Positions 3,123-43,711 of a DNA stretch of 64,000 nt are shown one piece after another. The DNA lies in the NCBI GenBank assembly GCA_033439255.1, contig CM065878.1, forward strand, positions 4,340,001 to 4,404,000, read 5' to 3'. The notes beneath the pieces are model-generated. The model was not told the DNA's origin. It saw nothing but the letters and a program-made list of their open reading frames with translations, and did not search any database. Within the stretch, counting starts at the first letter, position 1, and the number at the start of each line of letters is the position of its first letter. The translations under genes and the position numbers were made by a program. Source of the stretch: Hericium rajendrae. Its lineage: Eukaryota > Basidiomycota > Agaricomycetes > Russulales > Hericiaceae.

Positions 3123-6100
3123 CTAACCTTCAACCAATCCAAACAACTCCCGGCACTTAACAACGCGATCCCTCGCCAGGGCCTTCGTCAGTGCGTCCGC
3201 AGGCATGTCCGCAGTCCCAAGAAACACAGGATGCAACACTCCAGAGTCTACCTGGTCCCTCAACCAGTAGAACCGAAGCTGCATGTGCTTCATGCGACCG
3301 TGGTGCTCCGGGTGCTTCGAAGAGGCAATGGCAGACTGATTGTCCATGTGCAGAGTCGAAGGACGTGACAGGACATCATAGCCAAACTCCGAAAGTAGGT
3401 TGCGCATCCAACAGACCTCCTGACCAGCGTCGAAGGCAGCAATGTACTCAGCCTCTGTAGTGGAGGTGGCAACAATTGTCTGAAGCCTCGAACGCCAGCT
3501 GACAGCACCGGTACCAATGCGGAGGACATAGCCAGATGTGGAGCGACCGTTGTCCGGGTTGCCTGCATGATCAGCATCAGAATAGGCAGAGAAGAGCTCA
3601 GGCAAAGTCCCAGAGGGACTCGGACCATAAGCAAGCTTCAAGTCGACTGTGCCCTTGAGATACTTGAGCAAGTGCTGAACGGCCTTCCAATGTGCCATGC
3701 CAGGATTGGAGGTGAAGTGGCAGAGGACCCCGACAGCATAAGCAATGTCTGGGCGAGTGCCACCTGCGAGATAGAGGAGAGAACCAACTGCACTGATGTA
3801 GGGAATGCTCTCCATCTCCTCGCGATCCTGCGGGGTCTGCGGACTCATGGCCTTCGAAAGCTGCAATCCAGGCTCCATCGGCGTCGAGAGAGGCTTGCAA
3901 TCATTGTGATTGTAGCGCTCGAGCATGTCCAGGATGTACTGCCGCTGGGAGAGGAAGAGACGACGAGTAGAGCGATCCCGGGTCACTGCAACACCGAGGA
4001 GAAATGAAGTCGCACCCAAATCCCGAAGCTTGAAGTGAGAGGCTAACTCCTCCAAGAGCTCGTCAAGAAGCTTCTCCGAGTTGGATGCCATCGTCCCATC
4101 GTCCACAAAGACAGGCACTATGACTCGCACATCACCCTTCTGGAACACATAGATGCTGTTGTCCGAGTGAATGCAGGTGAAGCCCATCTTGTGCACAAGG
4201 ATCTTCGTCAACTTCTTCTTCCACAACAGCGCGGCCTGCTTCAACCCATAGATAGACTTCATCAGCGCAGACACATCACCTGGATCACCCTCTACAAACC
4301 CCTCTGGCTGCTTCATGTAGACCTCTGCATCGAGATCACCATTGATGAAGGCATGGGAGATGTCGAAAGAGCGAAGGGAGAGGTCCTCGACAGCTGCAAG
4401 AGCAAGGACAGTCCGAATAGAGGCAAACTTGCATGTGGGAGCGAAGGTCTCGTTGAAATCCATGCCTGGCCGCTGGCTAAACCCCTTGGCAACCAATCGA
4501 GCCTTGTATCGCTCGATAGAGCCGTCCGGGTTCTGCTTGATCTTGAAGACCCACCGGGACCCAATCGCAGTGCGACCAGGTGGAAGCGGACCTACAGACC
4601 AAGTGCCATTGCGCTTGTGGGCCTCCATCTCCTCCTGACATGCGAGAAGCCAGTCCTGTGCATCGGGGCGTTGCATTGCCTCGCGAAAGGACATGGGCTC
4701 GGAATCAGCAGAAGAGAGCATCGCACCTTCGGAGAGAAGATCAAGCTCATCTGGGCTGTCTCTCTCCTGTTCCTCGAGCTCTGAAGCATCAGCTGAAGTC
4801 TGCTCGACGTCCTCAACGTCCGAGCCAGATCCAGATGACAACACTGCAGGTGTAGGCTCCCGAGCTTCATGAATGGAGGGCGGAGGAGCTTGGACCTTTG
4901 TAGAAGACTTGGCCGCGGACTTGATCTTGGACCCAGAGGGCTTCGGATCGGTCTTGGGAGTCTTCCACCACTCGCCAGGTTGCTTGCGCTCTCGAGTTCC
5001 TCGACGCTCTGGCAAGGCAGGCGCGGTCCCTCGAGTCACAGAGCGACCCCGACGAGCAGGCTGAACAGCAGGGGCTGCAGCAGGCAGCAGAGCAGCAGGG
5101 GCTGCGGGCAGAGGAGAGAGTGCCGGTTCAACGTTGTGCTCCTGTTCTTCAGCAGCAGGCTGTCTTCTGACTGACGGCTGAGAAGAGGGAGCGTCACCAT
5201 CCCCCTCCAGAACCGGTACAATCATCGGAGCAGAATCCTGAGCATCAGGCGAGGAAGCAAGCAAACGCGAAGAAGAAGAGGATGTAGACGTCAATGGGGA
5301 GTTCCTAGAACGACTAGGAAAGTCACGCTCATCGAAAGTGGCACACTCACTGATTACAGACTTGCGAGTCTGTGGATTATAAAACTTCCAACCCTTGTAC
5401 CCCTCCGGATACCCGATAAAGATGCACTTCTCCATATGGGGATCCAGGGACCTCCTTTTGTCCTTCTGCACATGCACATAGGCCGCACATCCCTACACTC
5501 GCAGACGCGAGACATCAGGCTTCGCACCATGCCAGAGCTGATAGGGAGTGGCATTCTCAACGGCAGAGGTACTCACACGGTTCCAAACGTGCACATAAGC
5601 CGCCAGACACTCACCCCAGAATGTCTTTGGCAGCCCAGACTCCGCCAGCATCGTGGTAACCCCCTCATCCATCGTACGGTTCGCACGCTCAGCTACTCCA
5701 TTTTGCTGAGGCCTGTTCCGCACGGTATGTTGACGAGTGATGCCTGCAGCAGTGGTAAAAGCAATGAACTCGTTCGACATGTACTCACCCCCCTTATCAT
5801 CTCGCAAGCCCTTGATCTGCAAGTCAAAGTGATTCTCAGCATAAGCTTTGAATGCCTTGAATGCAGCAAAGGCCCCATCCTTCGTGCGAAGCAGATAGAT
5901 GGTGCGGAAGTGGGAGTAGTCATCGATGAAGCTGATCCAGTACTTGTAACCTCCGATAGACTGAACAACGAGAGGGCCATGAAGATCTGTGTGAATAAGC
6001 TGCAAAGGCGAGTCCGCACGAGATAAAGAGCTCGGAAAGGGATCTGCATGCATCTTGCCTGCGAGACAAGCGACACAGATTGGATCCGGTGTTGCAGACG

Positions 6101-7526
6101 ACTGGAGATCGAGGCCAGTAACGAGGTCTTCACGAATGAGGCGCTGGACACCAGCAATGTGATGATGACAGAGTCGACGATGCCAGAGAGACATATCGAG
6201 AGGGAGAGTCGATGCAAGACGTGCAAAGGCGATCGAGTGGACAGTGTGACCCTCGAGGAAGGCAGAGTTCGAGCCGTTGACTCGAGCAGTGAAGAACAGC
6301 TCACCAGTGCGCTCAAATCGCATACAGTCGCCTTTGATCACAACAGTGAAGCCCTTGGCTCGAGTGAGGAAGAGGACTGAGAGGAGATTATTGCGGAGAT
6401 CAGGGACATGAAGGACTCGAGTAAAGATGACTGGCTGCTGCTCCTTTCCTCCGACCACTGGCACAAACTGAACCGAGCCTACTCCTGCAGCATAGACGAC
6501 CTTGTTGTCTGCGAGACGAACGGGAACAACGTGCGGAGTGTAGTCGATGAACCAATGGCGATGAGAGGTCATATGAGACGTGGCCCCAGTGTCTGCATTC
6601 CAGGAATCGTCAGCAACGAAGGAGGGTGAGGCAGAGGCTGCGAGAGAGAGTGAGAGTGAAGGACTTGCACTTCCAGCAAACTCTTGAACGACGGAGGCAG
6701 AATGAGCGACCGCGGGAACTGCAAAGGTAGATCCTGATGCCATTGCCTTCTGTTTCTCGTCCCAGGCCTTCCGATGACACTGTTCTTCGCTATGACCACC
6801 TCTCTTGCAGTATGTGCACGTCACACGCGGGCCTGAGGGCGTACCAGAGGGCTTGCCACCAGTCCGCGGAGGCTTGGAGAAAGTCCGAAGTGCAGAGGCA
6901 CCATCCTTGCCTGAAACGTCGCCGGATCGATGCATGCGATTGATCTCCTCGTTGCGGAATGCTGCCTGAAGCGACGAACGATCCATCTTCTCGAGTAGGA
7001 GCAAGGAAGAGGAGAAGGAGGCGTAGTCGGAGGGCAGAGAACGGATCATGGTCATGCAAACGAGCTCCTCGTCGAGCTTGGTGATGTCGAAGGTGTCCGG
7101 GCGCAGGTTCTGAACGCGGAGAATGGCCTCATCGATGCGGTTCATCAGAGATGCGAGAGACTCCTCCTCACCCTTGCGGATGGAGAAGAGATCGTCATAG
7201 GCATTGAATCGAGCACCGGGACGCTGCGAGAGGTGAACAGAACGAAGGGTGGTCCAGATAAGCTTAGCATCGGACTTGCAAGCCTGGATATGGATGCGCT
7301 GGTCCGGGGCAATAGCAAGAAACAGCGCACCAAGAGCCTTATCGTGCTTCTCCAACCAATCGGCAACCTTATCCGTCTCCTTCACATCCGGCTTGGGCTC
7401 AGTACCACTCACAATACCCCATAGACCCCTCAACCTCAAGACCGCGGTGATCTCCTCACTCCACTGAACATAGTTCGAGGACGAAAGCCTCGAAATTTGC
7501 ATGAGGTGAGAAAATGGGTTCGACAT
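3123..7526 (-). pseudogene. Copia gag-pol coding region (about one break)
   Basis: The coding region runs from about 7526 down to 3123. In order it shows: a UBN2-type gag N-terminus; a CCHC zinc knuckle (CTYCKRGGHSEEQC); an aspartic protease core (ADTGATSHM); the GAG-pre-integrase zinc-binding region (WHRRLCHHHIAGV); a copia integrase core (HTDLHGPL, FIDDYS, RPQQNGVAERANRT); a low-complexity linker; a copia reverse transcriptase (RWVFKIK, SFDISHAFINGDL, FVDDG at the catalytic site, where many relatives have YVDD); and RNase H (YSDADHAG, STTEAEYIA). The sister copy at 8434-12004 shows the same order. It would make a Gag-Pol polyprotein for reverse transcription and integration. It is treated as a fossil; about one break is apparent. 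Confidence 0.9.
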
Positions 7527-7819
7527 ATCTGAGTCGGACCGGGGAAGACCAGCAAGGCACTATAGTGTAGCGGGCTTGATCGTCGAAGGTAGAAGTCGAT
7601 AAAATGAAGGGTCGACGCTTTTTGGGAGCGGAGGGGATAGAGATATAAGAGATAGATGCAGAGTAACTCAACGATGTTAAGACCGGATGGCTCAGCGGAT
7701 CGGCGCGAAAACTTGTGGACAACGAAGGTACGCAGAGGCGACGTCGTTGGCGAAAGATCGGCGAGATCGGACAAGTGGATGGGCAGATATCGATGATGTG
7801 AAAACTTCGCTAGAGCGCA

Positions 7820-7831
7820 GGGCCCATAACC
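7820..7831 (-). other. Primer-binding site
   Basis: The minus strand reads GGTTATGGGCCC, complementary to the initiator tRNA-Met anticodon arm, as in the other copies. Confidence 0.8.
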
Positions 7832-8433
7832 TGTCAAAGTGCGAATCTGAGCAATAGGGAGCGACTCAGGAGCGCAGGAAGCGAAAGGGAGACACAGGGA
7901 TCGATTAGAGACTGCAGTCCAATGTGAGCAACTAGATACATGAGAAAGAAACACTATAGCGCACCTGCAGTCCAATGTGAGCAACTAAGGAGCTCACAGT
8001 CGATGGGACCGCAGGTGTACGACGCTCTACGGAAGTTGCCGGGCAGTGGCTTCAAAACTGTACAGTAGACACAACCAACAAGGGCAAGGCCCGAAAGAGC
8101 GAAAGTGAAGTAAGCAGAGCAATAGACAAGGCAATGTGAACGAGAGAAATAGAACTGTAGCAACAACCAGTTGGCTAAGTGGTAAAGTGTGTTAGACTGA
8201 CCTGTAAGGGTCCCGGGTTCGAATCCTGACTAGTGCATTAAAGCATAAGATCATAGGTTCAACTCCCGAGTAGTGCGCACTCAGCAAGTGTCTCTAAGAT
8301 CGAATCTCAGAGACTACAAGCTAGTCACAAGTCCTAGGCTCGACTCCAGGTGTCCGCTTGCAGAAGGACCTAGGATCGAACCTTGACTGTGCTGTGATTT
8401 TGCACTAGGATGCTGAGTCAAAAGACTTCAACA
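7832..8433 (-). repeat. Copia 5' LTR, 602-bp type
   Basis: Paired with 2389-2990 and followed on the minus strand by the primer-binding site at 7820-7831. Confidence 0.9.
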
Positions 8434-11400
8434 AGAGACGACGAGTAGAGCGATCCCGGGTCACTGCAACACCGAGGAGAAATGAAGTCGCACCCAAATC
8501 CCGAAGCTTGAAGTGAGAGGCTAGCTCCTCCAAGAGCTCGTCAAGAAGCTTCTCCGAGTTGGATGCCATCGTCCCATCGTCCACAAAGACAGGCACTATG
8601 ACTCGCACATCACCCTTCTGGAACACATAGATGCTGTTGTCCGAGTGAATGCAGGTGAAGCCCATCTTGTGCACAAGGATCTTCGTCAACTTCTTCTTCC
8701 ACAACAGCGCGGCCTGCTTCAACCCATAGATAGACTTCATCAGCACAGACACATCACCTGGATCGCCCTCTACAAACCCCTCCGGCTGCTTCATGTAGAC
8801 CTCTGCATCGAGATCACCGTTGATGAAGGCATGGGAGATGTCGAAAGAGCGAAGGGAGAGGTCCTCGACGGCTGCAAGAGCAAGGACAGTGCGAATAGAG
8901 GCAAACTTGCATGTAGGAGCAAAGGTCTCGTTGAAGTCCATGCCTGGACGCTGGCTAAACCCCTTGGCAACCAATCGAGCCTTGTATCGCTCGATAGAGC
9001 CGTCCGGGTTCCGCTTGATCTTGAAGACCCACCGGGACCCAATCGCAGTGCGACCAGGTGGAAGCGGACCTACAGACCAAGTGCCATTGCGCTTGTGGGC
9101 CTCCATCTCCTCCTGACATGCGAGAAGCCAGTCCTGCGCGTCAGGGCGCTGCATCGCCTCGCGAAAGGACATGGGCTCTGAATCAGCAGAAGAGAGCATC
9201 GCACCTTCGGAGAGAAGATCAAGCTCATCCGGGCTGTCTCTCTCCTGTTCCTCGGGCTCTGAAGCATCAGCTGAAGTCTGCTCGACGTCCTCAATGTCCG
9301 AGCCAGATCCAGATGACGAGACTGCAGGTGTAGGCTCCCGAGCTTCATGAATGGAGGGCGGAGGAGCTTGGACCTTGGTAGAAGACTTGGCCGCGGACTT
9401 GATCTTGGACCCAGAGGGCTTCGGATCGGTCTTGGGAGTCTTCCACCACTCGCCAGGTTGCTTGCGCTCTCGAGTTCCTCGACGCTCTGGCAAGGCAGGC
9501 GCGGTCCCTCGAGTCACAGAGCGACCCCGACGAGCAGGTTGAACAGCAGGGGCTGCAGCAGGCGGTAGAGCAGCAGGGGCTGCGGGTGGAGGAGAGTGTG
9601 CCGGTTCAACGTTGTGCTCCTGTTCTTCAGCAGCAGGCTGTCTTCTGACTGACGGCTGAGAAGAGGGAGCGTCACCATCCCCCTCCAGAACCGGTACAAT
9701 CATTGGAGCAGAATCCTGAGCATCAGGCGAGGAAGCGAGCAAACGCGGAGGAGAAGAGGGTGTAGACGTCGATGGGGAGTTCCTAGAACGACTAGGAAAG
9801 TCACGCTCATCGAAAGTGGCACACTCACTGATTACAGACTTGCGAGTCTGCGGATTATAAAACTTCCAACCCTTGTACCCCTCCGGATACCCGATAAAGA
9901 TGCACTTCTCCATATGGGGATCCAGGGACCTCCTCTTGTCCTTCTGCACATGCACATAGGCCGCACATCCCCACACTCGCAGACGCGAGACATCAGGCTT
10001 CGCGCCATGCCAGAGTTGGTAGGGAGTGGCATTCTCGACGGCAGACGTACCCACACGGTTCCAAACGTGCACATAGGCTGCCAAACACTCACCCCAGAAT
10101 GTCTTCGGCAGCCCAGACTCTGCCAGCATCGTGGTAACCCCCTCATCCATCGTACGGTTTGCACGCTCAGCTACTCCATTTTGCTGAGGCCTGTTCCGCA
10201 CGGTATGTTGACGAGTGATACCTGCAGCGGTGGTAAAAGCGATGAACTCGTTCGACATGTACTCACCCCCCTTATCATCTCGCAAGCCCTTGATCTGCGA
10301 GTCAAAGTGATTCTCAGCATAAGCTTTGAATGCCTTGAAAGCAGCAAAGGCTCCATCCTTCGTGCGAAGCAGATAGATGGTGCGGAAGCGGGAGTAGTCG
10401 TCAATGAAGCTGATCCAGTACTTGTAACCTCCGATGGACTGAACAACGAGAGGGCCATGAAGATCTGTGTGAATAAGCTGCAAAGGCGAGTCCGCGCGAG
10501 ATAAGGAGCTCGGAAAGGGATCTGCATGCATCTTGCCTGCGAGACAAGCGACACAGATTGGATCCGGTGTTGCAGACGACTGGAGATCGAGGCCAGTAAC
10601 GAGGTCTTCACGAATGAGGCGCTGGACACCAGCAATGTGATGGTGACAGAGTCGACGATGCCAGAGGGACATGTCGAGAGGTAGAGTCGATGCGAGGCGT
10701 GCAAAGGCGATCGAGTGGACAGTGTGACCCTCGAGAAAGGCAGAGTTCGAGCCATTGACTCGAGCAGTGAAGAATAGCTCGCCAGCTCGTTCGAATTGCA
10801 TGCAGTCGCCCTTGATCACAACAGTAAAACCCTTGGCTCGGGTGAGAAAGAGAACTGAGAGGAGATTATTGCGGAGATCAGGGACATGAAGAACTCGAGT
10901 AAAGATGACTGGCTGCTGCTCCTTTCCTCCGACCACTGGCACAAACTGAACCGAGCCTACTCCTGCTGCATAGACCACCTTGTTGTCTGCGAGACGAACA
11001 GGAATGACGTGCGGAGTGTAGTCGATGAACCAATGGCGATGAGAGGTCATATGAGACGTGGCCCCAGTGTCTGCATTCCAGGAATCATCAGCAACGAAGG
11101 AGGGTGCGGCAGAGGCTGCGAGAGAGAGTGAGAGTGAAGGACTTGCACTTCCAGCAAACTCTTGAACAACGGAGGCAGAATGAGCGACCGCGGGAGCTGC
11201 AAAGGTAGATCCTGACGCCATTGCCTTCTGCTTCTCGTCCCAGGCCTTCCGATGACATTGTTCTTCGCTATGACCACCTCTCTTGCAGTATGTGCACGTC
11301 ACACGCGGGCCTGAAGGCGTACCAGAGGGCTTGCCACCGGTCCGCGGAGGCTTGGAGAAAGTCCGAAGTGCAGAGGCACCATCCTTGCCTGAAACGTCGC

Positions 11401-12004
11401 CGGATCGATGCATCCGATTGATCTCCTCGTTGCGGAATGCTGCCTGAAGCGACGAACGATCCATCTTCTCGAGTAGGAGCAAGGAAGAGGAGAAGGAGGC
11501 GTAGTCGGAGGGCAGAGAACGGATCATGGTCATGCAAACGAGCTCCTCGTCGAGCTTGGTGATGTCGAAGGTGTCCGGGCGCAGGTTCTGAACGCGGAGA
11601 ATGGCCTCATCGATGCGGTTCATCAGAGATGCGAGAGACTCCTCCTCACCCTTGCGGATGGAGAAGAGATCGTCATAGGCATTGAATCGAGCACCGGGAC
11701 GCTGCGAGAGGTGAACAGAACGAAGGGTGGTCCAGATAAGCTTCGCATCGGACTTGCAAGCCTGGATATGGATACGCTGGTCCGGGGCAATAGCAAGAAA
11801 CAGCGCACCAAGAGCCTTATCGTGCTTCTCCAACCAATCGGCAACCTTATCCGTCTCCTTCACATCCGGCTTGGGCTCAGTACCACTCACAATACCCCAT
11901 AGACCCCTCAACCTCAAGACCGCGGTGATCTCCTCACTCCACTGAACATAGTTCGAGGACGAAAGCCTCGAAATTTGCATGAGGTGCGAAAATGGGTTCG
12001 ACAT
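8434..12004 (-). pseudogene. Copia gag-pol coding region, 3' part absent
   Basis: About 1190 codons are open, starting MSNPFSHLMQ at 12004. Gag, CCHC knuckle, protease, GAG-pre-integrase, integrase core and the first half of reverse transcriptase are present, including SFDISHAFINGDL and FVDDG. The frame then runs into the neighbouring LTR. Codon use and sequence are close to the element at 2389-8433. As it stands it could not complete reverse transcription. Confidence 0.88.
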
Positions 12005-12297
12005 ATCTGAGTCGGACCGGAGAAGACCAGCAAGGCACTATAGTGTAGCGGGCTTGATTGTCGAAGGTAGAAGTCGATAAAATGAAGGGTCGACGCTTTT
12101 TGAGAGCGGAGGGGATAGAGATATAAGAGATAGATGCAGAGTAACTCAACGATGTTAAGACCGGATGGCTCAGCGGATCGGCGCGAAAACTTGTGCGCAA
12201 CGAAGGTACGCAGAGGCGACGTCGTTGGCGAAAGATCGGCGAGATCGGACGAGTGGATGGGCAGATATCGATGATGTGAAAACTTCGCTAGAGCGCA

Positions 12298-12309
12298 GGG
12301 CCCATAACC
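12298..12309 (-). other. Primer-binding site
   Basis: Same 12-bp site as at 1552 and 7820, directly inside the 5' LTR. Confidence 0.8.
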
Positions 12310-12927
12310 TGTCAAAGTGCGAATCTGAGCGATAGGGAGCGACTCAGGAGCGCAGGAAGCGAAAGGGAGACACAGGGATCGATTAGAGACTGCAGTCCAA
12401 TGTGAGCAACTAGATACATGAGAAAGAAACACTATAGCGCACCTGCAGTCCAATGTGAGCAACTAAGGAGCTCACAGTCGATGGGACCGCAGGTGTACGA
12501 CGCTCTACGGAAGTTGCCGGGCAGTGGCTTCAAAACTGTACAGTAGACACAACCAACAAGGGCAAGGCCCGAAAGAGCGAAAGTGATGTAAGCCATAGAG
12601 TAAGCAGAGCAATAGACAAGGCAATGCGACCGAGAAAAATAGAGCTGTAACAACAACCAGTTGGCTAAGTGGTAAAGTGTGCTAGACTGACCTGTAAGGG
12701 TCCCGGGTTCGAATCCTGACTAGTGCGTTAAAGCATAAGGTCATAGGTTCAACTCCCGAGTAGTGCGCACTAAGCAAGTGTCTCTAAGATCGAATCTCAG
12801 AGACTACAAGCTAGTCACAAGTCCTAGGTTCGACTCTAGGTGTCCGCATGCTTGCAGAAGGACCTAGGATCGAGCCTTGACTGTGCTGTGATTTTGCACT
12901 AGGATGCTGAGTCAAAAGACTTCAACA
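12310..12927 (-). repeat. Copia 5' LTR, 618-bp type
   Basis: Near-identical inverted partner of 934-1551. On the plus strand it holds a tRNA-like A box (12662-12672) and five B-box-like motifs (12707, 12747, 12788, 12828, 12868) about 40 bp apart. Confidence 0.88.
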
Positions 12928-30679: not shown

Positions 30680-31740
30680 ATGTGGGCACGGGGCAGACGA
30701 CACGGGTGCATGGGAGAGGGCAAGGGTGTGCGGGAGAGGGCAAGAGTGCACGGGAGGCGACGCGGGCACGCGAAAGGTGACACGGACATGTGCGAGATAG
30801 CGGGAGGCACACGGGAGGTGGTGCTGGTGCACGGGAGACAGTGCCGGTGTGCACGAGGAAGACGGCACCGACGTACGAGAAAGATGGCACCGACATGCGG
30901 GGAAGACGATGCTGACACGCAAGAGGTGACGCAGGCGAGTGGGAGATGGCAGAGGTGTGCAGGATGCGGCAGGGGTGCGCGGGAGGTGGCGCAAATGCGC
31001 GGGAGACAGCAGGGGTGCACGGGAGGTGACAAGGATGCACGGGAGATGACACCGGCACGAACGAGGCGACACAGGCATGGGAAAGATGGTACCAGCATGC
31101 AGGAGACGGGAGGGGCACTGGGAGGCAGCACGGATGTGCGAGAGACGGCAAGGGCTGCGCGGGAGACGACACAGATGCCGAGAGATGGTGCGGGCACGCA
31201 CAAAGTGACGCAGGTGCGGGGAAGATGGCACCAGAGCGCAGGAGACGGGAGGGCACGCGGGAGGCAGTGAGGATGTGCAGGAGATGGCGCGGGCACGCAT
31301 GAAGCGACGCAAGCACGGAGAAGATGGCACCGGCGAGCAGGAGACAGGAGAGGCACGCAGGAGGCGGCGCGGATGCACAGGAGACGGCAAAGGGTGCACG
31401 GGAAACAGCAAGGGGTGCACGGGAGACAGCAAGGGGTGCGCGGGAGACAGCACAGACACCGAGAGACAGCACCGGCATGGGGGAGATGACGCGGACGCGG
31501 GGAGACGATGTGGGCATACAGGAGATGGCACAGGGCGCAGATCGGCGGAGGCACGCGCGGATCGGTAGGGACGTGCACGGATTGGCGTGTGTGTGTGCGA
31601 GTCGGCAAAGTTGGTGGGGACATCCGCCACTCGATGGCGACACGTGCGAGGGGTCAGCAATGCAAAACGGTCAGTGGGGGCGTGCATGTTGGTGGACGCA
31701 TGTGCAAGGTGACGTGCTGGATGCGCAAAGTAAAAACGAG
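30680..31740 (-). repeat. GC-rich 20-bp minisatellite, left arm
   Basis: Degenerate tandem units with core GCACGGGAGAC. Long ORFs in several frames on both strands result from stop-poor repeats. Confidence 0.75.
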
Positions 31741-31773
31741 AGTATTGCCCGTATTTGAACAGGCAATACTCTC
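31738..31773. repeat. GAGAGTAT hairpin 1
   Basis: 12-bp stem GAGAGTATTGCC with its complement around a 12-nt loop, at the inner edge of the left GC-rich arm. Confidence 0.75.
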
Positions 31774-31930
31774 TGAATTAGCAGTGAATAAGGCCAATAA
31801 GACAAATTCACTCACTGTGAAGCCATGTACAGCTCCTCCCTGTACGAGTCCAGCTCGGAATACCTGAGAAAAGCCTGTTAGTTGTCCATTGACAGAGGGA
31901 AATGTACCTTACAAGTATGAAAAAACAGCC

Positions 31931-31966
31931 GTGGGACGTGTTTGGCTGCAGCCAAATGTTTCCCAC
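31931..31966. repeat. 36-bp GTGGGA palindrome 1
   Basis: GTGGGA, then GTTTGGCTGCAGCCAAA, then TCCCAC; one of two related palindromes of the same length (partner 33604-33639). Confidence 0.75.
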
Positions 31967-32033
31967 GCGCCCCCCACATTTTTTTTGTTCAAAGTCGACA
32001 CGCGAGCTGCACGTCACGGCCCGCCATGCACCG

Positions 32034-32075
32034 TTTCATTTGAATGACCATATATGGTCATTCAAATGAAACGGG
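32034..32075. repeat. Perfect 42-bp palindrome
   Basis: Each half is 21 bp, CGTTTCATTTGAATGACCAT plus one base, with an ATATAT centre. CACGGCCC and GGGCCGTG flank it, so the symmetry extends with a gap. It marks the midpoint of the foldback structure. Confidence 0.85.
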
Positions 32076-32261
32076 CCGTGTGGCTCCGTGCGCTCGACTT
32101 GCATTCGACGACTTTTACCTGCCACGTCGTCTTCCTTCCACCCACCCCTTTGTCGCTGTGGGAATTTTATTGTAAGTATCTCCCAATCGTTTTTGATACT
32201 TTTTGGGCTGGGAATAAAGGTGAGTACCTACAGTTCTACTATAGCTTCGTTATCTAATCAA

Positions 32262-32295
32262 GAGAGTATCGCTTGTGTTGTCGAGCGATACTCTC
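32262..32295. repeat. GAGAGTAT hairpin 2
   Basis: 12-bp stem GAGAGTATCGCT / AGCGATACTCTC around a 10-nt loop, at the inner edge of the right GC-rich arm. Confidence 0.75.
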
Positions 32296-32299
32296 GTTT

Positions 32300-33600
32300 T
32301 TTTTTACACTTCGCATGCCCCCACCCACTCCCGCGCACCCGTGCCGCCCCTGCGTGCCCACGTCGCCACCTATGCATCCATACCGCCACCCGCGCACCCA
32401 TGCCCCGCCCGCGCACCTCCACCGACTCACTCGCATCCGTGCCGACTCCCGTGCGCCCCTTGCTGACTCCCGCGCACCCCTGCCGATGCCGCTGCACTCC
32501 CTTGCGCCCGCGCCGACTCCTGCGCATCCCCGCCGACTCCTGTGCATCCCTGCCGACTCCTGTGCATCCCTGCCGACTCCCGTGCGTCCCCGCCGACTCC
32601 CGCGTGTCCCGCCGACTCCCGCGCATCCCCGCCGACTCCCGTGCACCCCCGCCGACTCCTGCGCACTCCTGCTGATGCCGACTCCCACCCACCCCCCACC
32701 GACTTGATCGGCGGCGCTGCCTCCCGCGCGCCCCTGCCACCTCTCGCGCCCCCGCGCAGACTCGCACGCACCCGCGCCGATGCCAACACGTCCGCGCTGC
32801 TGCCCGCATGCCCATGCCACTGCCCGCACGCCCTGTGCGGATTCGCATGTCCCCGCGCCATGTCCAACGTGCCGATTCTGCCTTCTACGCCTCGTGCCAA
32901 CTCCTGTGCATCTCTGCCAACTCCCGCGCGCCCACGCCGACTCGATCGCCAGCGCCGCCTCCCGTGCGCCCTTGCCGCCTCTCATGTCCCCGTGCGGACT
33001 CGCACACCCACGGGCAGACTTGCATGCCTGTGGGCGGACTCGCTCACCCCCGCGCCACATCCAATGCATCCATGCCGTCTCCAGCACGCTCATGCAGCCT
33101 TCAGCACGCCCATGCCATCTGCTGCGCGCCCGCGCCGATCCCTGCGCGCCCGCGCCGACTCGCACACCTCCTCGCCGACTCGCATGCCCCCCTGCCGACT
33201 CCCGCCCCTGCACCACCTCCTGCGCCCCCGTGCCGCCTCCCGCGCGCCTCTCTCGTCTCCTGCGCGCTGGCGCCATTTTCCCCGCGCCTGCGCCTGCGGA
33301 CCCGCGCCGCTTCCAGGATGCCCGTGCCGCCTCCCGCGCCATCGCGCCACCTCCAGCGCACCCGTGCCGCCTCCAGCACACCCGCACCACTCCCGCGCGC
33401 CCACACAGATTTCTGCACACCCGTGCCGACTCCCGCGCGCCCGTGCTGACACCCATGCACTCCCGCCGATGTTCACGTGCCCACGTCGATGCCCGCGCTC
33501 CCGTGCTGACCCCTGCCACCCCTGCTGCCTCCCGCGCACATGCCCACCAACTTCTGCATGTGCCTTGCAGACCCCCACATGCCCATGTTGCCTCCTGTAG
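32300..33600 (+). repeat. GC-rich 20-bp minisatellite, right arm
   Basis: Tandem units of about 20 bp, clearest at 32510-32670 (GCCGACTCCTGTGCATCCC-like). Inverted partner of 30680-31740. Confidence 0.8.
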
Positions 33601-33639: not shown

Positions 33640-34055
33640 GAGGCATTGGGTGCTGTAGGTGCAGAAGAATATGGACTGGGAGATATACTACTAGTGTACA
33701 AGATGTAATTAGCCAGAAATATAGTATTTCCTGTGGTATATTGCTGGAGATCTGATATAAGAGATAATCATGGATGATAACAAACTATACACAACTATAG
33801 GTGGAATGAAGCTACCAAACGGTATAAACTCTATTGTAGGTGAACTGTAGGTACTGTAGCTTTGAGCAGCTATGGTAGATTTGGGCATCTATGAGCTGCT
33901 ACAGGTCAGCTACAGATCAGCTACAGGTAGCAAATATAGGGACCCACTTGTCACCAAGAGCTACGTGATCTATGGAACCTTTTTCAGCTACAGTAGATTA
34001 ATATTGCTACTGTAGATCCCTGTAGAATCTACGCCTTTTTCAGATGTCAGCTCCA

Positions 34056-35107
34056 CACTGGGTGCAGATTTTAATAACTGATGATGAGATACTGAGAAAT
34101 TATCAAATACAAAGTATTACATTTCTTTTGATAACTGGCACCACAATATCAAAAAAACAACAGAAACTTCTTTTCAATAGTTAGAGCTTAACTATGAAAT
34201 GAAAAGTTTGACTTTGATTCTCATAGTATCACAGTATTAACACAATATTGAGCTCAATATATTGCACTGGCCTATGAAAGAGCTTTTTTAAATACTTTTT
34301 ACAATTGCTTTACAACTTCAACATCATTTTTTTCTTAATAACAAATACAATGCTATACTAATACTAGGGCTAGATTATGATTAACAATATTACATATATC
34401 ATTTTGATACATATCATATAACTGGACATGAAAATTTAAAATAATCTTCAACTATCATATTTGTATCTTTTCAATGTTTTCTCAATATTTGAATATCAAG
34501 TATAACAAAATATCTTGAAAAATTCTTTTAAACAAGCTATAAGAAGAATGTTGAAGATATTATAGTATAAATAAGACAATATTAAAATCAAAGTTGAAAC
34601 ATCATTTTAATACTGGTGACCAGTTACGAAGATAAAATTTTGGATTTTATACAAATTTCTAAGGCAAAGTATCAGCATGAAATTGAAAACATATTATGAT
34701 GTTATTAAAAACAAATGAAAACTATATAAAGAAGAAATAAAAAGACATTCTAAGTATTATTAAAAATAAATTGAAAGATTAACAGAAGAATATTGAGATT
34801 TAAAAGTAAAACATTATTATAAACTAAAATTGAAAGTACATTAAATCTCATTTACTGTTTAGACTCTATTATTTGCAACTTTACAGTATTACGTTCTGCA
34901 ATTCTGTAGTGCTAAACTATATAATTTGATTACATTATATTTTACAATGCTATATTATATTGCTGTGCTACAAGATACACTATGGCAGTGCTATATTATG
35001 TAGTGCAAAAATGCTGTATCATACAGTGCTACAGTTGTACAGTAATTCAATGTGCAATAATACATAATTATTATCTTACAATACTGCATCATACAGTCCT
35101 GCAATGT
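34056..35107 (+). repeat. Left 1.05-kb terminal inverted repeat
   Basis: Matches 41272-42323 inverted over its full length with few differences by eye. Confidence 0.85.
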
Positions 35108-35884
35108 TAAATTGTACAGTCTTATAGTGCTGCTTTGTGCAGTGCTGCTGTGCCACTTTGTACAGTCCTGCACTGCAGCTTTGTGCAGTCCTGTAGTGCA
35201 GCTTTGTGCAGCCCTGCACTGCCACTTTGTGCAGTCTGGCAGCACTGCTTTGTGCAGCCCCACACTGCCACTTTGTGCAGTCTGGCAGTGCTGCTTTGCA
35301 CAGTCCTGCAGTGCTGCTTTGCACAGTCCTGCAGTGCTGCTTTGCGCAGTCCTGCAGTGCTGCTTTGCGCAGTCCTGCAGTGCTGCTTTGCGCAGTCCTG
35401 CAGTGCTGCTTTGCACAGTCCTGCAGAGTCGCACAGTCCTGCAGTGCTGCTTTGCGCAGTCTTGCAGTGCAGCTTTGCGCAGTCCTGCACTGCAGCTTTG
35501 TGCAGTCTTGCAGTGCAGCTTTGCGCAGTCCTGCACTGCACTTTGTGCAGTCTTGCAGTGCAGCTTTGCGCAGTCCTGCACTGCAGCTTTGTGCAGTCCT
35601 GCACTGCCACTTTGCACAGTCTCGCAGTCCTGCAGTGCAGTCTTGCAGTCCTGCAGTGCAGCTTTGCATAGTTCTGCACTGCAGCTTTGTGCAGTGCTGC
35701 ATTGCAGTTTTGCACAGTCCTGCAGTGCTGCTTTGTACAGTCCTGCAGTGCTACTTTGTACAGTCTCACAGTGCTGCTTTTGGCTTTGCGTAGTCCTGCA
35801 GTGCAGCTTTGCACAGTCTTGCAGTGCAGCTTTGTGCAGTCCTGCATTGCTGCTTTCTGCAGTCCTGCAGTGCAGCTTTGCACA

Positions 35885-36078
35885 CATCAGGAAACTCCTC
35901 ACTTTCCTGGCTTTACTGTTATAGGTCTGATGTCACTGTTTTGGGCCTGATATTACTGTTTTCAGACTGCTTTCAGACATCTGAATCTGATATGTGTCTG
36001 AAAACAGTAACATCAGGTCCAAAACAGTGACACCAGACCTACAACAGTAAAGCCAAGAAAGTGAGAAGTTTCCTGATG
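35885..36078. mobile_element. MITE 1 in the satellite arm (194 bp)
   Basis: Near-perfect foldback: starts CATCAGGAAACTCC, ends with the inverted match. It shares the CATCAGGAA tip with the next two MITEs. Confidence 0.8.
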
Positions 36079-36921
36079 CAGCCCCACAGTGCTGCTTTGC
36101 ATAGTCCTGCACTACTACTTTGTGCAGTTCTGCAGTGCTGCTTTCTGCAGTTCTGCAGTGTGGCTTTGCACAGTCCCACAGTGCTGCTTTGCACAGTTCT
36201 GCAGTGCTGCTTTGTGCAGTCTTGCAGTGCAGCTTTTGGCTTTGTGCAGTCTTGCAGTGCAGCTTTGCACAGTCTTGCACTGCAGTTTTGCACAGTCATG
36301 CATTATGGCTTTGCACAGTCCTGCAGTGCCACTTTGTGCAGTCTTGCAGTGCTGCTTTTGGCTTTGCGCAGTCCTGCAGTGCTGCTTTGCACAGTCCCAT
36401 ACTGCCACTTTGCACAGTTCTACACTGCCACTTTGCACAGTCCTGCAGTGCAGCTTTGTGCAATCCTGCACCACCACTTTGTGCAGTCCCATACTACTGC
36501 TTTGCGCAGTCCTGCACTGCCACTTTTTACAGTCTGGCAGTCCTGCAGTGCAGCTTTGTGCAGTCTTGTAGTGTAGCTTTGCACAGTCCTGCAGTCCTGC
36601 ACTGCAGCTGCTGCTTTGCACAGTTCTGCAGTGCAGCTTTGCACAGTCCTGCAGTGCAGCTTTGTGCAGTCCTGCATTGCTGCTTTCTGCAGTCCTGCAG
36701 TGCAGCTTTGCACAGTTCTGCACTACAGCTGCTGCTTTGCACAGTCTCACAGTGCCACTTTGTGCAGTCTTGCAGTGCAGCTTTGCACAGTTCTGCACTA
36801 CAGCTGCTGCTTTGCACAGTCTCACAGTGCCACTTTGTGCAGTCTTGCAGTGCAGCTTTGTGCAGTCCTGCATTGCTGCTTTGTGCAGTCCTGTAGTGCA
36901 GCTTTGCACAGTCCTACAGTG

Positions 36922-37321
36922 CATCAGGAACCTTCAAAACTTTCTGATGGATCCTGCAGAGTCTGATCAACTGCAAGACCTGATCCAGCTGCAGGCTCTA
37001 ATTAGAGGTCAATTTTTGATCAGAGATTTTATATTTTGAAGTCAATAACTATTGGCAGATATAGTAGTCATCCAACTCTAATCATTAGATGCAACAAAGT
37101 TTTCAATATCTAAAATTTACATAAATCTGAGCAGTTCTGATCAGTCTGTGAGCATTCTACATTGATACTTTTTGAATCTTAAGGTCAAATATTCTGCAGC
37201 TAGCTGAGAGTAGCTGATGTTATCTGAGAGTATCTGATGTGTCTGATGTAACTGCTGCAGGTCATGCAGACACTGTCAGATGCCTTGCAGGTCAAACAGA
37301 AAGTTTTGAAGGTTCCTGATG
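36922..37321. mobile_element. MITE 2 in the satellite arm (400 bp)
   Basis: The tips match perfectly over 25 bp (CATCAGGAACCTTCAAAACT and on); the interior is AT-rich with CTGATC/GATCAG motifs. Confidence 0.8.
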
Positions 37322-37965
37322 TGCTGCTTTGTGCAGTCCTGTAGTGCTGCTTTGTGCAGTCTCACAGTGCAGCTTTTGGCTTTGTGCAGTCCTGCAGTGC
37401 AGCTTTGTACATTCCTGCAGTGCAACTTTGCACAGTTCCGTAATGCTGCTTTGTGCAGTCCTGCACTGCTGCTTTGTGCAGTTCCATAGTGCAGCTTTGT
37501 GCAGTTCTGTACTGTGGCTTTGTGCAGTCCTGCAGTGCTGCTTTGTGCAGTCCTGCAGTGCAGCTTTGCACAGGTCTGCACTGTGGCTTTGTGCAGTCTC
37601 GTAGTGCTGCTTTACACAGTCCTACACTATGACTTTGTGCAGTCCTGCCTGAGATCATGTGATGCAGGACTACTGAGGACCCGAACGAGGCCGCGGCACA
37701 GTCCTACACTGTAGCTTTGCACAGTTCTGCACTGTGGCTTTGTGCAGTTCTGCATTGCAGCTTTGTGTAGTTCTGCATTGCAGCTTTGCACAGTCCTGCA
37801 GTGCTGCTTTGTGCAGTTCTGCAGTGCTGCTTTGTGCAGTTCTGCACTGTGGCTTTGTGCAGTCCTGCAGTCCTGCTTTTTGCAGTTCTGCAGTGCAGCT
37901 TTACACAGTCTCGCAGTGCTGCTTTGTGCAGTTCTGCAGTGCAGCTTTGTGCAGTCTTGCATTGT

Positions 37966-38548
37966 ACATCAGGAAGGTTGACAACTTTCTGATTGACCTG
38001 ACAATTTCTAACCCTACTGACAGCTTCTGATTGACCTGATCCACCTGAAAGCAATCTTAACAGACAAATATCTGATCAAACTTTTACATTTAAGTAAAGA
38101 CATTTATTGTCAGATATATAAGTTTGTAATCTCTAACTAATAGATATAACAAAATCTCTGATATCTAAAATTTTCTAAATCTGAGAGTGTCTGATCTGAG
38201 AATTTTTTCAAATCTGGAGGTCAAATATCTGAAAATTATCTGCAACTGTCTGAGAGCATCTGATGGTGTCTGATACTATCTGATCCATCTGACTGATATT
38301 TGACCTCCAGATTTGAAATCAGACACTCTCAGATTTTCAAAAATTTCAGATATCAAAGATTTTGATATATCTATTAGTTAGAGATTAAAAACTTATATAT
38401 CTGACAATAAATGTCTTTTCTTGAATGTAAAAGTCTGATCAGATATTTGCTTCTCAAGATTGCTTTCAGGTGGATCAGCTCAATCAGAAGCTGTCAGTAA
38501 GGTTGCAAATTGTCAGGTCAATCAGAAAGTTGTCAACCTTCCTGATGT
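37966..38548. mobile_element. MITE 3 in the satellite arm (583 bp)
   Basis: Inverted arms of about 260 bp; tips ACATCAGGAAGGTTGACAAC. The AAGGTTGACAACTTTCTG segment is the tip of the separate 196-bp MITE at 18367, which links the families. Confidence 0.8.
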
Positions 38549-38549
38549 A

Positions 38550-39315
38550 GTGAGCAGCACAAAAACTCAAGAGCCTTCCTCGAGGTCTATCGCCAAAGCT
38601 GAAGGTTGGAGGCATAGATGGAGTAGGACATGTCACACAGCTTGTATCTATTTGTGACCATGGGGGTACCTCCTTTTCCTTAAGAGGCAATATCAAAGCT
38701 CATGAAGTGAGTGAGAAGTCGAAGCTCATTAAAAGAATAGAGAGACTGAGATTTGAAGGAATGAGAAATGAATAACGTGTAGATAGGGTCATTGGATGGG
38801 GAGAGGTGAAGGGTCATTAGGCAGATGACAAGAGAGGCATTGTGGAAAGCAGGGTTTTTGAAGGAGGGAAAAGAGACAAAGGGAGCATGTGATGCAGGAC
38901 CCTAGAGGACTCCAAACAAATCAAGACATGCCTTGCAATAATACACCTTATTGGCCCAGAGTGCCAGGATCTGGAGTATGAGTAGTCAAGCAGGACTGGG
39001 CTTGGTACTGTACAGTAATGGACCTTTAAATATCTTTTTGTACTTAACTCATCGCTCTAGCAAAGAGCGATGAAACATCTATCTACACACTATTCATTTC
39101 TCGTTTCCTCAAATCTCAGTCTCTCTATTCTCTTAACGAGCTTCAACTTCTCACTCGCTTTGCAAGCTTTGATATCACCCTTTAAGAAAATGGACGTATG
39201 CTCATAGTTACAAACAGATACAAGCTGTGTGATGTGTCCTACTCCATCTATGCCTCCGACCTTCAGCTTTGGTGATGGAACTCAAGGGAGGCTCTTGAGT
39301 TTCCATGCTGCTCAC
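38550..39315. repeat. Central inverted repeat, two 237-bp arms
   Basis: Arms 38550-38786 and 39079-39315 start GTGAGCAGCA and are inverted copies with scattered differences. The 292-bp centre ends with a hairpin, CATCGCTCT / AGAGCGATG (39050-39072). No ORF of note. Confidence 0.8.
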
Positions 39316-41270
39316 TGCAATGCAGGACTGCACAAAGCTGCACTGCAGAACTACAAAAAGCAGCACTGCAGGACTGCACAAAGCCAAGCAGCACTGCAGG
39401 ACTGTGCAAAGCTGCAATGTGGAACTGCACAAAGCTGCAATGCAGAACTGCACAAAGCCACAGTGCAAAACTGTGCAAAGCTACAGTGCAGGACTGCACA
39501 AAGCCATAGTGTAGAACTGTGCAAAGCAGCACTGTGGGACTGCACAAAGCCAAAGGCAGCACTGTGAGACTGCACAAAGCAGCATTGTGGGACTGTGCAA
39601 AGCTATAATGTAGGACTGCACAAAGCTGCAGTGCAGGACTGCACAAAGCTGCACTGCAGGACTGCAAGATTGTGCAAAGTGACAGTGTAGGACTGTGCAA
39701 AGCTGCACTGCAAGAGTGCACAAAGCTGCAGTGCAGGACTGTGAGACTGTGCAAAGTTCCAGTGCAGGACTGTGCAAAGCTGCAGTGCAGGACTGCACAA
39801 AGCTGCACTGCAGGACTGCAAAAAGCAGCAATGCAGAACTATGCAAAGCAACATTACAGAACTGTGCAAAGCTGTACTGCAGGACTGCACAAAGCCAAAA
39901 GCAGCACTGCAAGACTGCACAAAGTGGCACTGTGGGACTGTGCAAAGTGGCAGCTATAATGCAGGACTATGCAAAGCTGCACTGCAGAACTGCAAAAAGC
40001 AGCAATGCAGGATTGCACAAAGCTGCACTGCAGGACTACGCAAAGCTGCAAGATGCACCCAACCCTTAGAGCCAATCCTTATCCTGAAGTTATGGATCTA
40101 TTTTGCCGACTTCCCTTATCTACATTGTTCTATCAACTAGAGGCTGTTCACCTTGGAGACCTGCTGCAGTTATGAGTATGACCAGGTGTGAAAATTATTC
40201 ATTCCCTTGGATTTTCAAGGACTATCAAGAACGCACCAGACCCGACAGAGGTGTCGAGCTCTACCCACCATTGAACCTATGCAAAGCTGCACTGCAGGAC
40301 TGTGAGACTGTGCAAAGTGACAGTGCAGAACTGCACAAAGCAGCAGTGCAGGACTGTGCAAAGTGACAGTGCAGGACTGCACAAAGTGACAGTGTAGAAC
40401 TGTGCAAAGCAATACTACAGGACTGTGCAAAGCCGCAGTGTAGAACTGCACAAAGCTGCAGTGTAGAACTGCACAAAGCTGCAGTACAGGACTGCGCAAA
40501 GCTGTAGTGTAGGACTGTACAAAGCTGCACTGCAGGACTGTGAGACTGTGCAAAGTGACAGTGTAGGACTGCACAAAGCAGCAGTGCAGGACTGCACAAA
40601 GCTGCACTGCAGGACTGCACAAAGTGAAAAGCAGCACTGTGAGACTGTACAAAGCAGCATTGCAGGACTGTGCAAAACTGCAATGCAGCACTGCGCAAAG
40701 CTGCAGTGCAGGATTACGCAAAGCTGCACTGCAAGACTGTACAAAGCTGCACTGCAAGACTGCAGGACTGCACAAAGTGACAGTGCAAGACTGCACAAAG
40801 TGGCACTGCAGGACTGCACAAAGCTGCAGTGCAGGACTGCAAGACTGCACAAAGTGATAGTGCAGGACTGCACAAAGCTGCAATACAAGACTGAGCAAAG
40901 CTACAGTGCAGAACTGTACAAGGCTGCACTGTAGGACTGCACAAAGCTGCACTGCAGGACTGTACAAAGCTGCAGTACAGGACTGCACAAAGCTGTAGTG
41001 CAGGACTACACAAAGTGGTAGTGCAGGACTGCGAGACTGTGCAAAGCAGCAGTGCAGGACTGCAAGACTGTGCAAAGCTGCAGTGCAGGACTGCAAGACT
41101 GTGCAAAGTGGCAGTGCAGGACTGCGCAAAGCTGCAGTGCAAGACTGCACAAAGTGGCAGTGCAGGACTGCACAAAGTAGCAGTGCAAGACTGCACAAAG
41201 CTGCACTACAGGACTGTACAAAGTGGCACAGCAGCACTGCACAAAGCAGCACTATAAGACTGTACAATTT
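39316..41270 (-). repeat. 23-bp satellite array, right arm
   Basis: Inverted counterpart of 35110-37965 (unit appears as GGACTGCACAAAGCTGCA). Carries no MITE. It is interrupted at about 40050-40275 by roughly 220 bp of unrelated sequence with no clear origin. Confidence 0.85.
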
Positions 41271-41271
41271 A

Positions 41272-42323
41272 ACATTGCAGGACTGTATGATGCAGTATTG
41301 TAAGATAATAATTATGTATTATTGCACATTGAATTACTGTACAACTGTAGCACTGTATGATACAGCATTTTTGCACTACATAATATAGCACTGCCATAGT
41401 GTATCTTGTAGCACAGCAATATAATATAGCATTGTAAAATATAATGTAATCAAATTATATAGTTTAGCACTACAGAATTGCAGAACGTAATACTGTAAAG
41501 TTGCAAATAATAGAGTCTAAACAGTAAATGAGATTTAATGTACTTTCAATTTTAGTTTATAATAATGTTTTACTTTTAAATCTCAATATTCTTCTGTTAA
41601 TCTTTCAATTTATTTTTAATAATACTTAGAATGTCTTTTTATTTCTTCTTTATATAGTTTTCATTTGTTTTTAATAACATCATAATATGTTTTCAATTTC
41701 ATGCTGATACTTTGTCTTAGAAATTTGTATAAAATCCAAAATTTTATCTTCGTAACTGGTCACCAGTATTAAAATGATGTTTCAACTTTGATTTTAATAT
41801 TGTCTTATCTATACTATAATATCTTCAACATTCTTCTTATAGCTTGTTTAAAAGAATTTTTCAAGATATTTTGTTATACTTGATATTCAAATATTGAGAA
41901 AACATTGAAAAGGTACAAATATGATAGCTGAAGATTATTTTAAATTTTCATGTCCAGTTATATGATATGTATCAAAATGATATATGTAATATTGTTAATC
42001 ATAATCTAGCCCTAGTATTAGTATAGCATTGTATTTGTTATTAAGAAAAAAATGATGTTGAAGTTGTAAAGCAATTGTAAAAAGTATTTAAAAAAGCTCT
42101 TTCATAGGCCAGTGCAATATATTGAGCTCAATATTGTGTTAATACTGTGATACTATGAGAATCAAAGTCAAACTTTTCATTTCATAGTTAAGCTCTAACT
42201 ATTGAAAAGAAGTTTCTGTTGTTTTTTTGATATTGTGGTGCCAGTTATCAAAAGAAATGTAATACTTTGTATTTGATAATTTCTCAGTATCTCGTCACCA
42301 GTTATTAAAATCTGCACCCAGTG
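41272..42323 (-). repeat. Right 1.05-kb terminal inverted repeat
   Basis: Inverted copy of 34056-35107, ending CTGCACCCAGTG directly before the resumed transposase. Confidence 0.85.
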
Positions 42324-43711
42324 CCATCTCTTGGAGATCGCCAAGGATGGCTATGTTCGGGCCTAGGACATCGTTGATTATGTCGCCAAACTGGAAATTC
42401 AGGAACAGCTTGGCAACACGGGCAGAAAGAAGACAACAATATTGGTGCGCACAGCGCAGCGATGGCTCCACAAGATGAGCTGGCATTACGGGAAGAAGAA
42501 GAATGGAATGTACATCGACGGCCATGAGCGCGAAGATGTTGTGGACTACCGCAACAATTTTGTTATCCGCTGGAAGGAGTATGAGCAACGAATGGTGCAT
42601 TATGACCAGGACGGCAATGCAAGCGCACCGACTGGGTTTCCTGTTCCACAGGGACCGAGGTTCCGGCTCTATCTCATCATGCACGACGAGTCAACATTTT
42701 ACCAGAATGATCGCCGGTAGCAGGTTTGGTCACACCCGAGCCAGGGACCGACTCCACAGCCAAAGGGAGACGGTGAGTCATTGATGGTGTCTGATTTTCT
42801 TTGTCCTGACTTGGGTCAGCTCGTGCATGAGTGCCAGTGAGTTTTGAAGTCTAAATAATTTTGAATGTCACTCAATCTTCATCAGAGAGGCTCGGATATT
42901 TTTCAGAGCAGGGAACAACCGTGACGGTTGGTTCAACAACGGTCATCTGCTCGCACAAACTGAAAAGGCAATTGATATCTTCGAAGCCTTGACACACCGG
43001 CAAGCCACCGGACTCTTCATGTTCGACAATGCTTTGAATCACAAGAAGCGTGCCGATGACGTGCTCTTGTCGACAAAAATGCCGAAGCGGCCGAAGCACG
43101 GATGGTCACATGTCAAAGATGGCCCGAAGATGCGCGATGGAATCTTGCCGGACGGCACCCGACAGCTGCTTTATTTCCCCGATGATCACCCAACCATGCC
43201 CGGCTGGTTCAAGGGCATGGAAGTGATTATCCGGGAACGGGGCCTGTGGCCGGACAATGGCCTTCCCGCGGCATGCGTGCTGAGATGCAGCAAGGACGGC
43301 ATCAATTGTTGCTGCCGTCGGGTCCTCTACCACCAGGCAGACTTTGCAGGGCAGAAATCTGCTCTCGAAGAGCTCATCAAGAGACGGGGTCACATTTGTG
43401 ATTTTTACCCCAAGTTTCACTGTGAGCTCAATTTTATTGAGCAGTACTGGGGAGCAGCAAAATTGCGCTACCACATCAGTCCTCGGACAAGTGATTTTGC
43501 CGAGATGGAATGCAACATCAAGGCATTGCTTGACGATGTCCCGTTGCTCACAATCTGGCGGTATGCTAACCGCTCTGCACGATTTATCTCGGCTTATGGA
43601 CAAGGTCTATCGGGTCCACAAGCAGCTTGGGCAAACCGGAGGTATCATGGGCATCGTGTTCTACCTCCCGAAATGGTAGCAGAAGTAAAGAAATCACTTC
43701 CGAATAGATAG
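42324..43711 (+). pseudogene. DDE transposase, C-terminal part (catalytic core)
   Basis: It resumes the gene broken at 30421 (HLLEIAKDGYVRA...DIVDYVA). It shows the second helix-turn-helix region (RTAQRWLHKM) and the DDE core: first Asp in LIMHDESTFYQND, second in LFMFDNALNH, and Glu in CELNFIEQYWGAAK, the pattern of the IS630/Tc1/mariner DDE fold. It ends HRVLPPEMVAEVKKS. A 49-nt intron (42837-42885, GTGAGT...CAG) restores the frame across EARIFFRAGNNRDG. In-frame TAG codons at 42364 and 42718 show decay even apart from the insertion. The gene would cut and move its own element; here it is inactive. Confidence 0.8.

Follow-up and report, generated by a model that had tools for sequence, protein, structure and literature searches.

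What occupies positions 34056-42323 of the window (the whole stretch analysed here, 64,000 nucleotides of Hericium rajendrae DNA at positions 4,340,001 to 4,404,000 of contig CM065878.1, assembly GCA_033439255.1), where 8268 bp are laid out in three nested levels of inverted symmetry, and what could have moved it? An initial annotation, made from the letters alone, had read this segment as a foldback element with arms of a stop-free 23-bp satellite and with no protein gene inside, and had likened it to the FB and Galileo elements of Drosophila, whose long inverted arms contain tandem repeats. To judge from its sequence, the segment is a transposable element. It probably belongs to a foldback DNA transposon family with ends of the CACTA/EnSpm type, an assignment made from the ends and the length of the duplication rather than from a demonstrated enzyme.

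All three levels of symmetry described at the outset were recovered. Self-BLAST returned an inverted match between 34056-35884 and 42323-40516 (1853 bp at 90.7%), and the outer 1055 bp of the two ends are 99.4% identical. Tandem Repeats Finder (TRF) detected arrays of the 23-bp unit at 35112-36923 and 37314-37961 and, oppositely oriented, at 39315-40051 and 40306-41287. The core of 774 bp has inverted arms of its own (38546-38786 and 39079-39319; 84% complementary, and 237 columns long in an alignment). The absence of a protein gene also held for the window copy: the 40 listed open reading frames of at least 80 amino acids gave satellite-like translations, except those reaching inserts or flanks (judged by eye), and a Pfam scan of 6 of the 40 gave no match at the curated cut-off.

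The 1055-bp end was then sought in the whole genome (46,767,965 bases, or 46.77 Mb, on 19 contigs), where the match counts for it are lower bounds. At least 14 full-length matches were obtained, with one partial match of 62 bp, and the 14 ends pair as seven inverted pairs on six contigs: the window copy (C1w, 8.3 kb, flanked by CCA), C6a (6.1 kb, TCA), C12 (10.6 kb, TCA), C9 (9.4 kb, TCA), C6b (C6:61896-147727, 85.8 kb, TTA), C5 (16.9 kb, TGG) and C2 (15.5 kb, TAT). The tip CACTGGGTGC starts all 14 ends, with 17 bases exact in 13 of them, and the 3-bp flanks are equal on both sides in every pair. The core is present in all seven elements, with inserts dividing it in C12 and C5 and with only part of it in C6b; outside the elements it has three weak matches (64-154 bp). 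C5 and C2 have in common an end variant that is about 70 bp shorter. A 62-bp tip at 81% identity (C1:521383-521444) was rejected as a further copy, having no partner within 9.9 kb.

Long inverted arms, internal tandem repeats and multiple copies are therefore found together, as in a foldback element. The initial annotation had named a single occurrence, or copies ending at different bases, as signs of a local palindromic duplication. The strong symmetry and the low copy number (seven pairs) might be taken to favor such a duplication, or an assembly artefact, but seven pairs on six contigs have the same ends, the same starting base and matching 3-bp flanks. A local palindromic duplication is thereby excluded, and the two explanations together are hardly credible. 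As to the kind of element, transposons of the Galileo/P superfamily duplicate 7-8 bp of target and those of the PIF/Harbinger superfamily duplicate TWA. The flank matches here are 3 bp long, and just one of the seven duplications (TTA) fits TWA, while CCA, TCA (three times), TGG and TAT do not. The ends are CAC..GTG in 14 of 14 cases and the duplication is 3 bp in 7 of 7, the features given for fungal EnSpm (CACTA) elements in a description of rust-fungus families (PMC12730594, excerpts). The same excerpts give Plavaka ends as TGT..ACA or CATCA..TGATG, and the ends of the element are CACTGGG. The likeness to FB and Galileo thus stands for the architecture but not for membership, since the ends and the 3-bp duplications indicate CACTA/EnSpm.

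Several points weigh against this assignment. A 389-bp miniature inverted-repeat transposable element (MITE) agrees with the tip over its first 13 bases and has TAA duplications in all three copies read, which would also suit a Harbinger-type enzyme. The Transposase_21 locus on contig C5 showed no CACT ends with a 3-bp duplication in the 9.9 kb read, and the transposase inside C6b has an in-frame stop and is tied to the family by position only. Mobility itself is read from the sequence of one genome. That the same architecture is moved by a PIF/Harbinger-type transposase, for which this MITE and the 3-bp length of the duplications speak, nevertheless seems improbable, given the poor fit to TWA and the agreement of the CAC..GTG ends with EnSpm.

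The CACTA/EnSpm-type family is, on the best reading, mostly non-autonomous. Profile searches covered Transposase_21 (EnSpm-type, 31 genome matches) and Plavaka (132 matches) and included no Harbinger profile; C6b excepted, neither was found in the other six elements. One of the 31 Transposase_21 matches lies inside any of the seven pairs, namely as a gene on the minus strand of C6b (E 5.3e-15), and a further frame there has a weak DUF4218 match (E 0.0024, below its cut-off). The gene has one in-frame stop relative to a relative on contig C5 (C5:2859500-2869400), to which it is about 50% identical. That relative adjoins frames with SNF2-related domains (best E 1.6e-7), and SNF2-like frames, recognized by tblastn match with no Pfam scan of their own, adjoin the C6b transposase too, in the opposite relative orientation. 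The subfamily comprises 15 loci with long matches at no less than 39% identity, C6b among them, of which about 0.03 would be expected inside the 85.8-kb pair by chance. None of the other 14 is within 50 kb of the 56 exact places of the 11-base tip CACTGGGTGCA (compared by eye). The initial annotation had suggested looking for an autonomous relative with a transposase; a pair with the same ends does contain a transposase gene, but the tie is one of position.

C6b is possibly a decayed autonomous copy. It is about as likely, or more so, that nested insertions and fragments of genes have accumulated in an old element whose transposase gene is a passenger; that C6b is not autonomous in this sense has, in our estimate, a slightly better than even chance. 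It contains copies of long terminal repeat (LTR) retrotransposons, a Sad1_UNC frame and a C-terminal piece of the ribosomal protein eL8 (yeast residues 163-253), for whose N-terminal part nothing convincing was found; these contents favor a passenger, as do the stop in the transposase and a core that lacks its left half. On the other hand, the outer triplets match (TTA/TTA), the two ends differ at 1 site and are separated from all other arms by 32 differences or more, and no smaller CAC..GTG pair with a 3-bp duplication was found around the transposase gene. A more far-reaching reading, rather unlikely as a whole, is that C6b is, or recently was, autonomous, a giant foldback CACTA element whose cargo includes captured host DNA and, besides the transposase, an SNF2-type ATPase. 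Conversion between the arms would then maintain the likeness of two ends that are 85 kb apart, the satellite arms would serve as a transposition platform, and the six small elements would be satellite-only derivatives whose common ancestor captured a ribosomal RNA (rRNA) fragment after the split.

Whatever the enzyme, each copy's ends evolve together and are homogenised with one another. They are 1-6 substitutions apart, 20 in total over the seven copies, and random pairings gave a total of 20 or fewer in 1 of 100,000. The distance within a copy is below that to any other arm in six of the seven, the exception being C12 (6 vs. 5). Substitutions private to one copy occur in both of its ends at 51 sites and in one end at 13; the contrast is strongest in C6b (26 vs. 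1) and C9 (12 vs. 0), whereas C12 (1 vs. 4) and C5 (1 vs. 2) show the opposite trend. Six of the seven end pairs group as a pair in a tree, those of C6a and C12 with modest support, and C5 shows no pairing. Since independent mutation hardly yields shared private changes, one arm appears to have been copied onto the other. The ends could be kept alike by gene conversion between arms, or one arm could be rebuilt from the other after excision. The left and right sides of six copies are 98-100% identical in the first kilobase and 72-93% identical in the satellite, from 1.2 kb onward; in C6b the identity is 94-100% up to 2 kb. The arrays are sometimes closer between copies than between arms (C6a and C12 match over 2174 bp at 96.5%). 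The likeness of inverted arms has otherwise been studied in large genomic palindromes, and seven pairs with shared private substitutions amount to a natural test of how such arms stay alike.

The satellite (consensus CTGCAGTGCAGCTTTGCACAGTC) is represented by 1024 units counted by arm orientation, on average 82.7% identical to the consensus, whose columns 7 and 15 are nearly invariant; the larger count of 1410 unit matches includes opposite-strand places in the same arrays, the unit being partly self-complementary. The two satellite arms are unequal (88 vs. 70 units in the window copy, 87 vs. 32 in C6a). When up to 2 mismatches are allowed, the 23-base pattern occurs at 281 places in the genome and its reversed control at none, which excludes chance, and the 100 of the 281 that were listed all fall within the seven elements. 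A 23-bp period is also present in the inner 275 bp of the end (identity 0.45-0.48 at lag 23 vs. 0.20-0.25 at lags 22 and 24). The array may therefore have arisen by expansion of this inner part, much as the repeats of the Tetris element of Drosophila virilis are proposed to derive from its end (PMC4079207, excerpts). Folding of one 281-base array piece was modestly better than that of shuffles (z -2.24, 4 of 200).

Whether the lack of stops reflects a coding function received a mixed answer. The consensus unit is stop-free, as the initial annotation had noted, and this is true of both strands; open frames in the arrays reach 411 amino acids. Transversions that make a stop have mean frequencies of 0.0035 and 0.0072 (4 and 7 sites), below the 0.0613 of other transversions (36 sites), and in 3 of 28 array-by-sense tests no more than 10 of 200 unit shuffles had an equally long frame. 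However, stop-making transitions (0.095 and 0.076 at 3 and 2 sites) come close to the other transitions (0.122 at 18 sites), the remaining 25 tests were unremarkable against unit shuffles, the two senses are open to about the same degree, the unit length of 23 bp is no multiple of three, and the 6 open reading frames scanned against Pfam gave no match at the cut-off. A coding function of the arrays is thus unlikely, and it is very doubtful that they make up a repetitive protein gene in which stops are avoided; the stop-free unit itself stands, without clear coding evidence from the test. The satellite could provide extra binding sites for the transposition complex, in the way that Galileo has extra transposase binding sites within its internal tandem repeats (work cited in PMC4079207, excerpts). 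An EnSpm-type transposase from elsewhere would cut at the CAC tips and move the element by cut-and-paste, leaving the 3-bp duplication, and a possible source would be a copy like the 85.8-kb one, with CACTA transposase and SNF2-like genes between the same ends.

The right-arm satellite is interrupted at 40054-40275 by some 220 bp of large-subunit rRNA sequence in antisense, which matched RF02543 with 58.2 bits in a first scan (cut-off 50) and with 175.3 bits (E 1.6e-45) when a 501-base stretch was scanned alone. The 240-bp piece that holds it occurs once in each of six of the seven elements (94.6-97.9% identical to the window copy) and was not found in C6b, whose ends are also the most divergent (95.4-96.7% to the others). 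These two observations suggest that the piece was captured once, after C6b had split off.

Foldback elements are best known from Drosophila. The family described here is real, and we did not find it in print within the open-licence literature searched, which yielded no report of a foldback transposon in basidiomycetes and none of a CACTA transposase with SNF2 in basidiomycetes. Long inverted arms and internal tandem repeats are common to it and to FB and Galileo, from which it differs in its 3-bp duplication and CAC..GTG ends. The closest counterpart in anatomy, on the best reading, appears to be Tetris, a foldback whose arms each have an outer end, tandem repeats and an inner domain (PMC4079207, excerpts), the same order as in Hericium; in both, the tip is held in common with a MITE and no mobilising copy coding for a transposase was found. 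However, Tetris is from an insect and not a fungus, and its units are 220 bp long and also form free satellite arrays (PMC4079207, excerpts), whereas those of Hericium are 23 bp long and the listed places are inside elements. Fungal EnSpm/CACTA elements have the same ends and duplication length, but the rust-fungus families bear a transposase, and satellite foldback arms go unmentioned in the excerpts of PMC12730594. Long DNA between foldback ends, as in C6b, recalls Ising's transposing element (TE) of Drosophila (PMC6431247, excerpts), with the differences that the mobility of the Hericium pair is putative and that its ends are parts of one element, while those of Ising's TE are whole foldback elements. 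Here the foldback plan is combined, in a mushroom, with CACTA-type ends and kilobases of short satellite, and it seems that foldbacks of this satellite-armed kind can originate within different superfamilies of transposons.

The left arm also contains two palindromes that are nested MITEs, unrelated to the element, which arrived as separate insertions. The one at 37967-38547 has 370 candidate places; the 40 that were scored were all matches, 39 of them at places other than this one and about 98% identical. The one at 35885-36078 has 29 (74-99%). Both have CATCAGG..CCTGATG ends and matching 2-bp flanks (TA and CA, respectively), which agrees, as far as sequence goes, with PlavakaB (CATCA..TGATG ends and 2-3-bp duplications; PMC12730594, excerpts), and Plavaka transposase is abundant in this genome. 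Further leads to an autonomous relative were rejected. The six places of CACTGGGTGCAGAACTT belong to the 389-bp MITE; the 259-bp pairs that share CACTGGGTGCA are a second MITE set, known as positions only; and a tip on C12 that lies 3.3 kb from a Plavaka gene is followed, after 11 bases, by sequence that does not resemble the end of the element. Tip-sharing MITEs of 389 and 259 bp lie at C1:321029, C1:3671175 and C6:2981789.

Table. Parts of the window copy and the sequences inserted in it (positions in the window)
Feature	Position	Strand	Basis
Left target duplication copy, CCA	34053..34055	.	flank comparison
Left terminal inverted repeat, 1055 bp, AT-rich (25% GC), tip CACTGGGTGC	34056..35110	+	14 full-length genome matches
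Left satellite array, block 1	35099..35884	+	TRF and alignment
Nested 194-bp palindromic MITE, CATCAGG..CCTGATG, CA flanks; foreign to the element	35885..36078	.	29 candidate places
Left satellite array, block 2	36084..36923	+	TRF and alignment
Left satellite array, block 3	37314..37961	+	TRF and alignment
Nested palindromic MITE, CATCAGG..CCTGATG, TA flanks; foreign to the element	37967..38547	.	370 candidate places
Core with inverted arms; in all seven elements, partial in the 85.8-kb one	38546..39319	.	genome matches
Right satellite array, inner block	39326..40056	-	
Captured large-subunit rRNA fragment, antisense to the window + strand; limits from alignment	40054..40275	-	RF02543
Right satellite array, outer block	40275..41280	-	
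Right terminal inverted repeat, 1055 bp	41269..42323	-	genome matches, left-right identity
Right target duplication copy, CCA	42324..42326	.	flank comparison

A third spacer in the left array, at about 36924-37313 (~390 bp), offers a single lead, an alignment of 283 columns at 67% identity with part of the larger (585-bp) palindrome. No transfer RNA was found in the window. Elsewhere in the window, head-to-tail repeats of about 4.5 kb at 3955-12927 are 96.9% identical and have inverted partners at 930-2389, and GC-rich arrays with units of mostly about 20 bp lie beside the element, at 30706-33454.

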